DNA of 64,000 nt from Mucilaginibacter sp. CSA2-8R (lineage in GTDB: Bacteria > Bacteroidota > Bacteroidia > Sphingobacteriales > Sphingobacteriaceae): the NCBI RefSeq assembly GCF_038806765.1, contig NZ_CP152389.1, positions 4,526,001 to 4,590,000 on the forward strand, read 5' to 3'. The position numbers and the translations under genes were made by a program. Below are positions 1 to 9,912 of the stretch, piece by piece (position 1 is the stretch's first letter; each line of letters starts with the position of its first letter). The notes beneath the pieces are model-generated. The model saw nothing but the letters and a program-made list of their open reading frames with translations, did no database searches and was not told the DNA's origin.

Positions 1-1487
1 AAGGCGCAACGGTTAGCTGGATAATCAGCACCAATATCAAGGTAAAAAGCGTTGTTTTGATTTTTAACGAAGGTGAAAAATTGCCGCTCGAGGGCAACCG
101 GTTAAACGAGTGGAAAGGCTCGCGCACCATTACCAAACCCGGCTTTTATCAGGTAAGTATCAACGGAAAACTTTCAGACTTGTACCAGGTGCAGATTATT
201 AAAGATGCTATACCGGTAATTCACATTAAATCACCCAAGCAGTACACTCACATTGATGCCGGCGAGGCTCCAAAGGTTGTTGTGGATGCCAGCATTACTG
301 ATGATTATGGCATCAGCAATGCCCTGATTTTTGCTACCGTAGCCAAAGGCAGCGGCGAGTCGGTTAAATTTAAAGATACTACGTTTAACTTTGGCACCTC
401 TTTTAATCAGCATAACAAACAATACAACCTGCAGCGTATTATCGACCTGCCCAAATTGGGCATGGAGCCGGGCGATGAGCTTTACCTTTACCTGCAGGCA
501 CAAGATACACATCAGCAAAAAAGCCGCACGGATGTTTTGATTGTATCTATACAAGATACTGCACAGCTGTTAAGCATGGATGGTATTGTATCGGCCGCCA
601 ATATCAAGCCCGAATATTTCAGAAGTCAGCGGCAGATTATTTTGGATACCGAAAAACTGCTAAAAGAAAAAGACAGCATTGTGGTAACCGCGTTTAAAAG
701 CCGCTGCAATGATTTAGGTACCGACCAAAAAATGCTGCGACTGCGTTACGGCAAGTTTTTAGGTGATGAAGATGAGAGCGGTGCCGAAGGCGAAGGCAAA
801 GAGGATGTAGCCAAAGCCGAAAACTTTGGTAATGCCGCCGTAATTATGGACGCCTACACTGATAAACACGACAATGCCGAAGACGCTACTTTTTTAGAGC
901 CTGCCGTAAAAGCCCAGCTTAAAGCCACTCTGAACGAAATGTGGAAAGCAGAACTGCGGCTGCGCCTTTTTAAACCACAGGAGGCTTTGCCTTATGAGTA
1001 CAAAGCTTTACGCTTATTAAAAGACTTGCAGCAAAAGTCGCGCTCGTTTGTTGCCAAAACCAGCTATAATCCGCCTCCTTTAAAACCCGAAAAACGCCTA
1101 AGTGGAGATTTAAGTAAAGTTGGGCTACCTGTTAACCAACAAACACTCAAACCTGCAGCAGACAAATACGAAACATTAAAAAAAGCAATTACCGTATTGC
1201 AGCAATCCCGATATACGGCTTTAAACACGGGCGATAAACGCGTTTTACAACTAGCATCACAACAACTTGCGTTGCAGGCTTCCAGCCAGCCCGGCACCTA
1301 CCTGCGCGCGGTAAGCGCCCTGCGCCGTATCATCAATAACAAAGCAGCGCCATCAATTGCTGACAGGGCTACTATAGAAAAAGCTATTCAGCAGAGTTTA
1401 CCAGGAAGCAAGGTAACACCATCGGCAAACCTATCAGCTCCGGATATGGGATTGGCTCAACGCTATTACAAAAATTTAAACCGATAA
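1..1487 (+). CDS. DUF4175-type envelope protein, C-terminal part (partial)
   Basis: The reading frame is open from base 3 to the left edge, so the gene begins outside the window. The TTG at 57 lies inside a continuous domain and is not a credible start. The visible part is a beta-rich, Ig-like region for about the first 190 residues, then charged helices with a strongly acidic stretch (DEDESGAEGEGKED), then a Pro/Lys/Ala-rich tail. This layout resembles the large DUF4175 proteins of Bacteroidota, which normally have N-terminal membrane segments and sit in MoxR/DUF58/BatA-type clusters; that assignment is from family memory, not a search. It lies 8 bp upstream of the next membrane-protein gene, so the two are probably co-transcribed. 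The molecular role is unknown. Confidence 0.7.
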   Translation, partial: GATVSWIISTNIKVKSVVLIFNEGEKLPLEGNRLNEWKGSRTITKPGFYQVSINGKLSDLYQVQIIKDAIPVIHIKSPKQYTHIDAGEAPKVVVDASITDDYGISNALIFATVAKGSGESVKFKDTTFNFGTSFNQHNKQYNLQRIIDLPKLGMEPGDELYLYLQAQDTHQQKSRTDVLIVSIQDTAQLLSMDGIVSAANIKPEYFRSQRQIILDTEKLLKEKDSIVVTAFKSRCNDLGTDQKMLRLRYGKFLGDEDESGAEGEGKEDVAKAENFGNAAVIMDAYTDKHDNAEDATFLEPAVKAQLKATLNEMWKAELRLRLFKPQEALPYEYKALRLLKDLQQKSRSFVAKTSYNPPPLKPEKRLSGDLSKVGLPVNQQTLKPAADKYETLKKAITVLQQSRYTALNTGDKRVLQLASQQLALQASSQPGTYLRAVSALRRIINNKAAPSIADRATIEKAIQQSLPGSKVTPSANLSAPDMGLAQRYYKNLNR

Positions 1488-6379: not shown

Positions 6380-6805
6380 TTAGTAACCTTTTGCTCTATT
6401 AGGATCAAAATGCAAACCCGGTGTTAACCAGTATAATAAAACCACCCGCGAAAACCTGAAGTTAAACGGTGCAAGCACTAAAGCCGACGTTAAGAGGACG
6501 CTGATATACAACCAAGGCGATTCCAGGTTACCGGTTAGGATGTAAGTAGCCACGGCCAGTGTAACCATCTCAGCCACATTCATGGCATAGCTTACAAACA
6601 TGGCCACATAAAAATATCCGGGCTCTATCTCAAAATGAAAGCCACAATGCGGGCACTCATTATACATTTGCTGACCACCAAACCTGTACATACCGTTGGC
6701 AAACATATTACCGGTGCGGCATTTGGGGCATTTGGCATGCATGGCAGCTTTTAGTATAGATGGACTTGCTGTCATGTTACTTTTATCTAACGTTAATGTT
6801 TTCAT
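6380..6805 (-). CDS. DUF983 small membrane protein
   Basis: A 141-residue protein with two CxxC pairs at the N-terminal side (KCPKCRTG and ECPHCGFHF), which suggest a zinc ribbon, and two hydrophobic segments (YVAMFVSYAMNVAEMVTLAV and WLYISVLLTSALVLAPF). This is the typical DUF983 pattern. The function of the family is unknown. The ATG at 6805 overlaps the end of the AraC gene by 23 bp; a second ATG at 6775 would give a 131-residue protein starting MTASPSILKAAMHAKCPKC, closer to usual family starts. Either way it is probably co-transcribed and perhaps translationally coupled with the regulator upstream. Confidence 0.85.
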   Translation of the reverse strand: MKTLTLDKSNMTASPSILKAAMHAKCPKCRTGNMFANGMYRFGGQQMYNECPHCGFHFEIEPGYFYVAMFVSYAMNVAEMVTLAVATYILTGNLESPWLYISVLLTSALVLAPFNFRFSRVVLLYWLTPGLHFDPNRAKGY

Positions 6806-7685
6806 GATGATTGGTATTTAAAGCCTTATTTCTGAATTGCTCTGGCGTAAGGCCGGTTTGTTTTTTAAAAAACTTGGTAAAATATGAATTATCTTCAAAG
6901 TTGAGCCGCGCAGCAATCTCGCTGATGGTTAGCTGTAAATTAATAAGCAAACGTTTTGCTTCCAGCACAATACGATTCCGAATCAATTCTCCGGCAGGTA
7001 TCCCCATCACTTCTTTACAAATACCATTTAAGTGATTTGGCGTAATATAAAGCAGTTCGGCATACTCTTTAGGCAAGCGCAATCTGGTATAGTTTTGCTC
7101 AACTAATTGCTGAAAATTTTTTAGCAGGGTATAATTATAGGCATTCACCCGATCGGATGACGGCTCGGCACCTAAGCGACCTATCGTAATAAACAGCTGC
7201 AACAAAAGCGCACGAACTAAATCCGCACTCATCCGCTGGTCTTGCTCTGTCTCAGTAATTAATTGCTCAAACAGTGTTGTAACCGGCTGATGCGTTTTGG
7301 CAGGTAAATCAATAACTGCATCACGGATGTTGCCATCAAAAAAAGGGAACTGTGCTAAGTAATCCGGCTTCAACAAAAAAGACTGAAAAAAGAGCTCAGA
7401 AAAATTGATAACGTACCCGTCAACCTTGCCCTCAAAGCTCCAGCTATGCACCTGCCCTGGCACCATAAAATAAATCTGAAACGGCCTTACTACAAATTGC
7501 TCAAAATCGATAGCATGAGTACCACCACCTTTAGTAAAAAATACTAAATGGTAAAAGCTGTGCTTATGTGCCAAATGCAGATTATGATGCTGTGCCAGAT
7601 AAGGCGCAAACCGGCTAATCAGAATATCGTCCTGCTTAAACGCTGACAGCGTACAGATATCGTAAACCGGTATTTCCCTTTTCAT
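6783..7685 (-). CDS. AraC-family transcriptional regulator
   Basis: 300 residues. The N-terminal half is a cupin-like AraC ligand domain (HKHSFYHLVFFTKGGGTHAID, then VVRPFQIYFMVPGQVHSWSFEG). The C-terminal about 100 residues contain two helix-turn-helix units (PKEYAELLYITPNHLNGICKE and ISEIAARLNFEDNSYFTKFF, the second followed by KKQTGLTPEQFR). ATG start at 7685. It is divergent from the sialate O-acetylesterase gene with a 238-bp spacer that holds a 13-bp direct repeat at 7721-7754, a likely binding site. The ligand is unknown; the genomic position suggests a sugar or the esterase substrate, but control of the overlapping DUF983 gene is equally possible. Confidence 0.92.
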   Translation of the reverse strand: MKREIPVYDICTLSAFKQDDILISRFAPYLAQHHNLHLAHKHSFYHLVFFTKGGGTHAIDFEQFVVRPFQIYFMVPGQVHSWSFEGKVDGYVINFSELFFQSFLLKPDYLAQFPFFDGNIRDAVIDLPAKTHQPVTTLFEQLITETEQDQRMSADLVRALLLQLFITIGRLGAEPSSDRVNAYNYTLLKNFQQLVEQNYTRLRLPKEYAELLYITPNHLNGICKEVMGIPAGELIRNRIVLEAKRLLINLQLTISEIAARLNFEDNSYFTKFFKKQTGLTPEQFRNKALNTNHHENINVR

Positions 7686-7720
7686 GTTGTTACAAATATA
7701 GGGAGTAAGCGTCGGTCAGC

Positions 7721-7754
7721 TATGGTACTATTTCATGCTCGTATGGTACTATTT
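7721..7754. promoter_or_regulatory. Direct repeat TATGGTACTATTT, candidate AraC-type operator
   Basis: The 13-mer TATGGTACTATTT occurs at 7721-7733 and again at 7742-7754. The copies are identical and their starts are 21 bp apart, two helical turns, the spacing used by AraC-family dimers. The pair is 36 bp upstream of the araC-type start and about 170 bp upstream of the esterase start. Confidence 0.6.
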
Positions 7755-7923
7755 ACTTATTAACAATTTCTTTTCAAACAGCGCATCTTACTATATATTC
7801 TTGTATTAAACATTTATTGTACAAAGGCGGTATAAGGTTATGTTACTGCTATTGAATTTCAAATACTACCGATGGCCTATGCAACCGGCAGTATCCATTA
7901 ACGAATTACACAATTGACTTAAG

Positions 7924-9912
7924 ATGAATAAAGCCCGTACCTGCCTTTGGACAGTTATTTTACTTATTGTGGCCCTGTCAGAATGCACTACGCCAAGCCA
8001 GGCGCAGCTCAGTACATCCAGGCTTTTTGCCGACCATATGGTATTACAGCGCAACCAAAAAATTACTGTTTGGGGTTGGTGCAAAAATGCCGCGAAAGTA
8101 AAAGTGACCTTAAACGGGCAACAAGCTAATACAACAGCTGATACTAAAGGTAATTGGAAAGCTGTACTATCGCCCATGGCAGCTGGCGGCCCTTATGTTA
8201 TGGACATCACATCGGGCAAAGAGCACTTGCAATACAAGGACGTAATGCTTGGCGAAGTATGGATATGTTCGGGACAATCCAATATGCAGTTCTTTTTAAA
8301 CCAGGCAACCGGTTATGAGCAAGAGCAAAAACAAGCAGATACTATTCCGGTAAGGCAGTTTCTGGTTCCACAAAAAATGAGTTTGACGCCCGAAAAACAA
8401 CTGTCGGGCGGCGAGTGGATCAAAGCATTGGCCGATAAGGTGGGCTACTTTTCGGCAGTAGGCTATTATTTTGCCAAGCAATTGGCAAAAAAACTACATG
8501 TAACCATTGGTATTGTACACAGCAGCTGGGGAGCATCGCAAGCCGAGTGCTGGATTAGTAAAGAAGGCTTGTTACGTTCGCCCGAGTTGAGTACAGTTGT
8601 TAAGCAGCAGCCTGACAACTGGCCCGCTATTAAAAAGCTGGCCGAAGCCGATATAAAAGCTTATGCGTACCACAATCAACCGGTAAAAAACTATCAAGTT
8701 TCGCAATTAGCTCAGGAGTCCCCCGCTTTTTTCAACACTTGGCCTACCGGCACATTAGGCCCATGGCAATGGCAGGCTAACTGGTATGCTTACCGTGGCA
8801 CCGGTTTTATGCAGCGCAGCATGGTATTATATGATGATTTGGTTAATGCACCTTCCGCCTTAAAATTAGGTGATACCGATGCTGATATAGACCTATACAT
8901 TAACGGCAAATCAATATTTAAAGGCGCTTTGCCTAAAGGCAAAATGATTGACCTACCCACGGGCACTTGGAAGATTGGCGAAAACAACCTAGTACTTCAG
9001 TTACTTTCAGACCAAAAAGACCCCTGGTGGTTTGGCTTTGGCCTAAACGGTGATATGGCAAATACCTATATAAAATTTGCCACAACCACCATGCCCCTGG
9101 CCGACTACAAATGGCACTTGATGCCTGATTTTAGTAAGCCGTACCGCGTAGAACCCACTACCAACCAAACCGTATTTACAGTGTATAATGCCATGGTTAA
9201 CCCACTGGTTCCGTTATCTGTTGCCGGGGTGGCCTGGTATCAGGGCGAAAGTAACGCAGCCAGGGCCAACCAGTACAAAACCACATTGCCGTTACTTATT
9301 AATGACTGGCGCAGTAAATGGAAAACTAACCTGCCTTTTATGATTGTGCAATTGCCTGCCTTCGGCCCTTTCCAAAACAGTAATCAGGGCAGCACCTGGG
9401 CAGAATTGCGTGAAGCACAAACCATCGCGCTAAAGCTCCCCAATACGGGCATAGCAATAACTTATGATGTTGGCAACCCTCAAAACCTGCACCCCACTAA
9501 TAAGGCTCCGGTTGGTATGCGCCTGGCCGATGCTGCGCTGAACAAAGTTTACCACTTCCCGGGTGTTGATATAAGCCCTGTATACCAATCGGCAACTTTT
9601 TTAGAGGGGGCCGCCTGGGTTACGTTTACCGAGGCCGACAAAGGACTGACTACGAAAAACAGCAGCACGCCTAAAGGTTTTGAACTAGCTGGGGCAGATC
9701 ATAAGTTTTACCCTGCACAAGCGCAAATTACCGGCGAAAAAGTGAAGGTTTGGTGCAGCCAGGTTAAAGAGCCTGTATCCGTACGTTATGCCTGGAGCGA
9801 CTCGCCGCTTACAGCAAATTTATACAGTAAATCAGGCCTGCCTGTAAGCCCGTTCAGATCTGACGATTATCCGGGAATAACAGCCGGAAAAAAATTACAG
9901 CTTTTTAAATAA
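7924..9912 (+). CDS. Sialate O-acetylesterase (SASA family), secreted
   Basis: 662 residues, ATG start, with an N-terminal signal peptide (hydrophobic WTVILLIVALS, likely cut near SQAQ-L). The SGNH-type motif ICSGQSNMQ places the nucleophilic Ser at about residue 119. Further conserved blocks are VAWYQGESNA and the Asp/His-bearing segment ending NLHPTNKAPVGMRLA. Residues about 255-375 form an inserted beta-sandwich (DIDLYINGKSIFKG to PWWFGFGLNGDMANTYIKF), common in Bacteroidota members of this family. The enzyme removes O-acetyl groups from sialic acid or, in plant degraders, from pectin or xylan sugars. The substrate cannot be told from sequence. It stands alone, divergent from the AraC regulator. 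Confidence 0.88.
   Translation: MNKARTCLWTVILLIVALSECTTPSQAQLSTSRLFADHMVLQRNQKITVWGWCKNAAKVKVTLNGQQANTTADTKGNWKAVLSPMAAGGPYVMDITSGKEHLQYKDVMLGEVWICSGQSNMQFFLNQATGYEQEQKQADTIPVRQFLVPQKMSLTPEKQLSGGEWIKALADKVGYFSAVGYYFAKQLAKKLHVTIGIVHSSWGASQAECWISKEGLLRSPELSTVVKQQPDNWPAIKKLAEADIKAYAYHNQPVKNYQVSQLAQESPAFFNTWPTGTLGPWQWQANWYAYRGTGFMQRSMVLYDDLVNAPSALKLGDTDADIDLYINGKSIFKGALPKGKMIDLPTGTWKIGENNLVLQLLSDQKDPWWFGFGLNGDMANTYIKFATTTMPLADYKWHLMPDFSKPYRVEPTTNQTVFTVYNAMVNPLVPLSVAGVAWYQGESNAARANQYKTTLPLLINDWRSKWKTNLPFMIVQLPAFGPFQNSNQGSTWAELREAQTIALKLPNTGIAITYDVGNPQNLHPTNKAPVGMRLADAALNKVYHFPGVDISPVYQSATFLEGAAWVTFTEADKGLTTKNSSTPKGFELAGADHKFYPAQAQITGEKVKVWCSQVKEPVSVRYAWSDSPLTANLYSKSGLPVSPFRSDDYPGITAGKKLQLFK

Follow-up and report, generated by a model that had tools for sequence, protein, structure and literature searches.

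What does an exact 13-bp repeat control when it lies between two divergently oriented genes? The question is raised by a stretch of 64,000 nucleotides from the genome of Mucilaginibacter sp. CSA2-8R (contig NZ_CP152389.1, positions 4,526,001 to 4,590,000; hereafter the window), in which TATGGTACTATTT occurs twice on the plus strand, at 7721-7733 and 7742-7754, 21 bp apart from start to start. The original prediction had correctly described this pair and its location between an araC-type gene (6783-7685, minus strand) and an esterase gene (7924-9912, plus strand), and had proposed that AraC dimers bind it as direct half-sites and control both genes. The comparative analysis presented here indicates that the repeat is very probably the operator of an araC-DUF983 operon and of a small regulon, with the characteristics of an AraC-type, class-II-like activator site. 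This controlled unit, together with a DUF1348 target elsewhere in the genome, had been missed in the original prediction.

Taken as a single sequence, the repeat is only mildly unusual. The window contains one exact 13-mer pair at a distance of up to 60 nt; 60 first-order Markov sequences averaged 0.15 such pairs and reached at most 3. Allowing up to three mismatches, the single 13-mer matches 27 times in the window, which is no enrichment over the 34.9 matches expected. Across the whole genome, a single contig of 5.34 Mb, the core pair ANTACCA-N14-ANTACCA at one mismatch shows hardly any enrichment (115 matches compared with 102 for the reversed control pattern). As this bare core pair fails to find the regulon, we used a sequence model of 52 positions instead (7717-7768, minus strand), based on an alignment of the operator region. 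It is the conservation across orthologous promoters that raises the repeat above chance.

Read toward araC, on the minus strand, the operator has the form AAATAGTACCATA-N8-AAATAGTACCATA, with a promoter-distal half-site at 7742-7754 and an identical promoter-proximal half-site at 7721-7733. Two half-sites in the same orientation and with a 21-bp period are the arrangement of an AraC-type direct-repeat operator. In a first collection of 60 genomes, araC orthologs with at least 58% identity were present in 31 of the 37 genomes of the genus, that of the window included. Both half-sites were found in register, the proximal one 21 bp downstream of the distal one, upstream of araC in all 30 fetched loci (including the window's own). 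The upstream half-site has a core of the TACCA/CACCA type with an invariant ACCA, while CC is invariant and CCA is present in 29/30 loci in the downstream half-site. The 31st genome with an ortholog (G027) also has the site (position weight matrix (PWM) score 29.7). When the PWM built from the first 30 loci was applied to the 80 araC loci of a second collection, 70 scored above 20 and 10 below -16. Seventeen of the 70 positive loci repeat sequences of the first set, so that 53/63 count as new; the 17 first-set loci that share their operator surroundings with second-collection records are nearly all from Mucilaginibacter, and the closest araC orthologs of the second collection (about 92% identical) derive from uncultured Mucilaginibacter assemblies. 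Combined, both collections comprise 80 distinct operator sequences over 83 distinct araC loci, and CCA of the distal half-site, the best conserved of the two, is invariant in all 80. A 5' extension of the distal half-site (7755-7760, minus strand; columns -6 to -1) is likewise conserved in the 30 orthologs and the 80 distinct operators, reading ATAAGT in the window and most commonly ATCAGT. The recurrence of the repeat upstream of AraC orthologs in relatives, which the original prediction had suggested as a check, was observed in 30/30 and 70/80 loci, and the absence from orthologous regions that would have spoken against it did not occur. Its view of the repeat as direct AraC half-sites is supported by the 21-bp phasing conserved upstream of these orthologs, which is that of a predicted AraC-type operator. 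Some operators (L026:2450-2462, in genome G022; L349) carry an additional half-site-like motif upstream, in the opposite orientation.

The operator stands at a fixed distance from a putative promoter. On the minus strand, TATATTTG (7693-7700) matches the -7 box TAnnTTTG of Bacteroidota sigma-A promoters, lies 20 bp from the proximal half-site and is followed by the ATG of araC 7 bp beyond. Proximal half-site and TAnnTTTG are separated by 19 or 20 bp in 30/30 ortholog promoters (one box with one mismatch) and in 69 of the 70 operator-bearing loci of the second collection. Of 17 sites that are not located before araC, 12 have an exact box at the same spacing, two have one with one mismatch, and three have no box in the register used. 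In Flavobacterium psychrophilum, the sigma-A box TAnnTTTG is positioned at -12 to -5 (PMC9723704). If the box of the window is placed likewise, araC transcription would start near 7688, leaving an untranslated leader of 3 nt, and the half-sites would be at -66 to -54 (distal) and -45 to -33 (proximal, overlapping the position of the -33 element). Relative to this predicted start, TATATTTG would occupy the position of a Bacteroidota sigma-A box, and a proximal half-site in the -35/-33 region at a fixed distance from the promoter box would conform to AraC-type operators.

The transcript predicted from this promoter would encode the AraC-type regulator (300 aa) and a DUF983 protein (141 aa; PF06170, 25.5 bits, cut-off 22.6), whose gene (6380-6805, minus strand) overlaps the end of araC. 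DUF983 follows araC in 20/20 fetched neighbourhoods, and in the second collection the operator and the DUF983 neighbour are present in the same 70/80 loci and both missing from the other 10. Clustering of the open reading frames across these 80 loci recovered DUF983 in 70, followed by a cluster in 39 loci with mixed positions; the other clusters appear lineage-specific. Two of the 10 loci without operator and DUF983 neighbour belong to Chitinophaga filiformis and C. rhizophila. In both species, the whole-genome model search placed the only strong site in front of a DUF983 gene at another location, with a spacing of 20 (C. filiformis, E 7.3e-7, at two identical places; C. rhizophila, E 3.8e-7). 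This suggests that the operator goes with DUF983 wherever araC is located, as a target bound in trans would. Among 21 examined DUF983 loci, five have a site (PWM 29.7 to 45.4) and 16 score -1.4 or less, the latter including two further DUF983 paralogs of the window's own genome.

The regulator has an N-terminal cupin-like AraC_binding domain (PF02311, 44.4 bits, cut-off 21.1), similar in fold to the regulatory domains of RhaR and AraC, and a C-terminal double helix-turn-helix (HTH_18, PF12833, 74.7 bits, cut-off 33.6, residues 208-286), for which helices were predicted with local confidence scores (pLDDT) mostly of 88-95. The AlphaFold2 model of the protein (mean pLDDT 82.6, predicted template modelling score 0.75) matched ToxT, Rns, RhaR, and AraC in Foldseek searches. 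By domains and fold, the protein is a member of the AraC/XylS family, with putative DNA binding and effector response; it exceeded none of the cut-offs among the NCBIfam equivalogs listed. Presence of the regulator and of the site are linked within the genus. All 31 genomes with an araC ortholog of at least 58% identity have the site. In four near-complete genomes that carry DUF983 genes and lack a close araC ortholog (G003, G007, G011, G030), no site reaches E <= 0.001. In G014, the site lies before an araC start that is cut by the contig end, and in G009 (58% complete) a site precedes DUF1348 and no araC ortholog was found. Genus-wide, 132/149 genomes have a site at E <= 0.001.

If the regulator acts in trans, similar sites are expected before other genes. 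In the window's own genome, only two model matches have E <0.001, namely the araC site (41.4 bits, E 5.1e-10) and a second site (G000:C1:3122309-3122349, 26.3 bits) separated by 20 bp from the downstream TACCTTTG of a DUF1348 gene (PF07080; operator and gene together at G000:C1:3122309-3122814, L130 and L150). Of 19 inspected matches in this and 30 further genomes of the genus, four are before DUF1348, two before PNPOx-like, and two before cyanase genes, and one is before a truncated araC. Upstream PWM scores above 8 were obtained for 11/28 DUF1348, 2/12 PNPOx-like, and 3/3 cyanase loci, compared with 1/43 of these target-family loci (score 9.3) for the reversed matrix; some of the 43 loci had prompted the search and are hence non-independent. 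A later test, on 20 regions of genomes in which the model matched several times, was freer of this dependence. Of its 13 non-araC sites, seven are before DUF1348 and one before cyanase; the remainder comprises one site each before a gene divergent from an araC copy, msrA, a DinB-like gene, and an 82-aa open reading frame, and one intragenic site. In Rhodocytophaga, araC and a divergent CMD-PNPOx pair are separated by a stretch that contains a site (PWM 21.5), whose distance to TACCTTTA of the CMD gene is 19 bp.

Further observations concern individual copies of these genes and sites. A second araC copy at L343 (G066:C1:1622000-1626000) has the operator and lacks DUF983, and a GAF/sigma-54-activator gene divergent from it has its own operator (PWM 42.5, spacing 19). 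The only site of L350 (G065:C8:40500-44600; PWM 24.8) is upstream of msrA (PF01625) and has no TAnnTTTG at the usual spacing. The GAF/sigma-54-activator gene, msrA, the DinB-like gene, and the 82-aa open reading frame (no Pfam match) each occur with a site once. Interrupted DUF1348 reading frames were found behind a strong operator (G006:C122:5101-5504, L172) and behind araC-DUF983 in Desertivirga arenae (L273, near 5430).

We propose that two AraC-type subunits, as a dimer, would bind head to tail to the half-sites, which are two helical turns apart and face the same side of the double helix. With the proximal half-site located where the -33 element would otherwise be, at a distance of 19-20 bp from TAnnTTTG, the bound protein would most likely replace this element by contacting RNA polymerase, as in class-II-like activation. 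The regulator would thereby activate its own operon, possibly in response to a small molecule sensed by its cupin-like domain, and could act in trans on similar sites elsewhere, i.e., on the DUF1348 gene in its own genome and also on cyanase and PNPOx-like genes in relatives. The same operator could, however, mediate repression, with the bound regulator shielding the promoter of its own operon, as a protein bound at the -33 position could also block RNA polymerase and autorepression is common among AraC relatives. We regard this as unlikely, because activation is the rule among AraC-family members of this fold and because the tight spacing of 19-20 bp at unrelated promoters is expected for polymerase contact and needless for blocking; the fixed spacing fits activation best. 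A different regulator that binds the site, with araC being merely one of its targets, would account for the sites before other genes and for the Rhodocytophaga, Spirosoma, and Chitinophaga orthologs that have no site before araC itself. This is improbable, given that the site goes with araC within the genus and that the Rhodocytophaga site is located between araC and the CMD-PNPOx pair.

Control of both araC and the divergent esterase, as originally predicted, would be in line with the position of the repeat in the shared intergenic stretch and with the same arrangement in the close relatives L195 and L196. The araC half of this claim is backed by the conserved operator upstream of orthologs, while the esterase half is not. 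The SASA-type esterase gene (PF03629; 7924-9912) is absent beside the operator in 20/20 fetched ortholog neighbourhoods and in 78/80 second-collection loci, the two exceptions being the same close relatives, with about 92% identity. Moreover, the operator is polar, with an exact promoter box on the araC side only: no exact TAnnTTTG was found on the plus strand of 7686-7923, and an imperfect plus-strand box at 7796 is 41 nt beyond the repeat, not 19-20. The operator hence does not appear to serve the esterase gene; esterase control was rejected as its main function, and control of both genes is as improbable as a different binding protein. TldD/TldE were likewise dismissed as operator-linked genes (0/20 fetched neighbourhoods; TldE in 2/80, both close relatives). 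That the repeat arose by chance, or as a remnant of a local duplication that has no function, has a negligible probability. Although 0.15 exact 13-mer pairs within 60 nt are expected in the window, neither origin is compatible with the conservation in 30 ortholog promoters and 70/80 loci, and a recent local duplication could not have produced 80 distinct operators that share half-sites and spacing across 83 loci.

Several observations weigh against an autoregulatory operator with a coherent regulon. Orthologous promoters are non-independent samples, and 10/80 loci, from Chitinophaga, Spirosoma, and one Desertivirga copy, hold araC without an autoregulatory site. Spirosoma arboris has an araC ortholog and no strong site genome-wide (best E 0.16). 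Seventeen genomes of the genus have no site, and the pairing of site and regulator covers the araC status of four of these. Ten of the 19 first-inspected model matches are inside or beside unrelated genes, 17/28 DUF1348 and 10/12 PNPOx-like loci score below 8, and 5/13 of the later non-araC sites have another or no clear target. Weak model matches within coding regions (the 10/19 of the first set and L358 of the later set) were taken as noise.

The proposed mechanism is of a known, textbook kind. E. coli AraC binds two direct half-sites with a 21-bp period at araI1-araI2, the proximal one at the -35 region, and its half-site ends in a CCATA-like core. The regulator of the window is not an ortholog of E. 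coli AraC (NCBIfam AraC equivalog 65.0 bits, cut-off 208), and the predicted promoter of its operon is of the Bacteroidota sigma-A type, unlike the E. coli AraC target. It is not an ortholog of RhaR either (best NCBIfam RhaR equivalog 67.6 bits, cut-off 363) and also falls below the HpaA cut-off. Its closest structural counterparts include the RhaR regulatory domain (PDB 5u93; Foldseek 5u93_B, template modelling score 0.81 over the target, root-mean-square deviation 2.7) and, as a whole-protein fold match, ToxT (6p7t, E 9.4e-9); identity to the RhaR/ToxT/Rns-type fold matches is low (13-17%). Direct repeats of 21-bp periodicity are described for AraC-family rhamnose regulators (RhaR), including those of Bacteroides, in PMC3870299, where the operators of Bacteroides, Bacillales, and Enterococcus were likewise predicted by comparative genomics. 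The operator described here differs from these RhaR operators in sequence, in its regulator, and in being associated with DUF983, DUF1348, cyanase, and PNPOx-like genes, in contrast to sugar catabolism genes. The regulon is new as far as our searches go; no account of it was found in the openly licensed PMC literature, where a search for AraC half-sites gave nothing and the papers on AraC and Mucilaginibacter and on AraC, cyanase, and Bacteroidetes, judged by title and opening of the abstract, deal with other subjects.

What could such a regulator sense? It is tempting, though doubtful, to propose a Bacteroidota regulon that counters poisons of the cyanide type or other respiratory and electrophile poisons, with a regulator that senses cyanide, nitrile, cyanate, or a related reactive compound. 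The hints fit cyanide-like or oxidative poisons, and none of them is strong by itself. Cyanase genes are among the recurring operator targets. DUF983 occurs in bacterial COX operons, according to PMC4013037, and in the window's own genome a DUF983 paralog without operator (L316, G000:C1 near 4446662-4447033; Pfam score 20.5, below the cut-off of 22.6) is part of an SCO1/SenC-DUF420 oxidase-biogenesis cluster. In Desertivirga (L275), a cytochrome bd oxidase subunit I gene (7-1341, minus strand) is divergent from the operator-araC-DUF983 operon. A fungal DUF1348 protein raised cercosporin resistance in Neurospora, while its own knockout had no phenotype, as reported in PMC4608573. The araC orthologs of Desertivirga xinjiangensis (L234:2294-3936) and Spirosoma arboris (L268:2597-3974) are at the end of a Nit1C-type cluster, directly after AIR-synthase-like and MSMEG_0570-like genes (TIGR04049 and TIGR04042 above cut-off), and in L234 a DUF1348 gene lies between the Nit1C-type genes and araC. 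Nit1C is a nitrilase cluster with cyanide and nitrile genes (PMC1199592, PMC11049912), and the known Pseudomonas nit1C has a sigma-54 regulator, unlike the AraC-type protein here. The Nit1C marker TIGR04042 was found in 0/149 genomes of the genus, and it was over cut-off in 0/395 sampled genomes of the phylum. Given its absence from all 149 genomes, Nit1C was rejected as an operator target in the genus.

If the poison-response proposal holds, the switched-on set would consist of DUF983 (oxidase maintenance), cyanase, DUF1348, and PNPOx/CMD-type proteins, and possibly of methionine sulfoxide reductase (one genome). To our knowledge, few operators have been mapped on Bacteroidota promoters, and the site described here would represent class-II-like AraC geometry on promoters of this phylum. 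An observation of 34 bp is thereby turned into a testable regulon for which the regulator and targets can be named and which comes with a 52-position operator model and a fixed promoter geometry. For DUF983 and DUF1348, which were found in one and two papers, respectively, of the openly licensed PMC literature searched, knowing the regulator and its inducer would yield the first functional leads.
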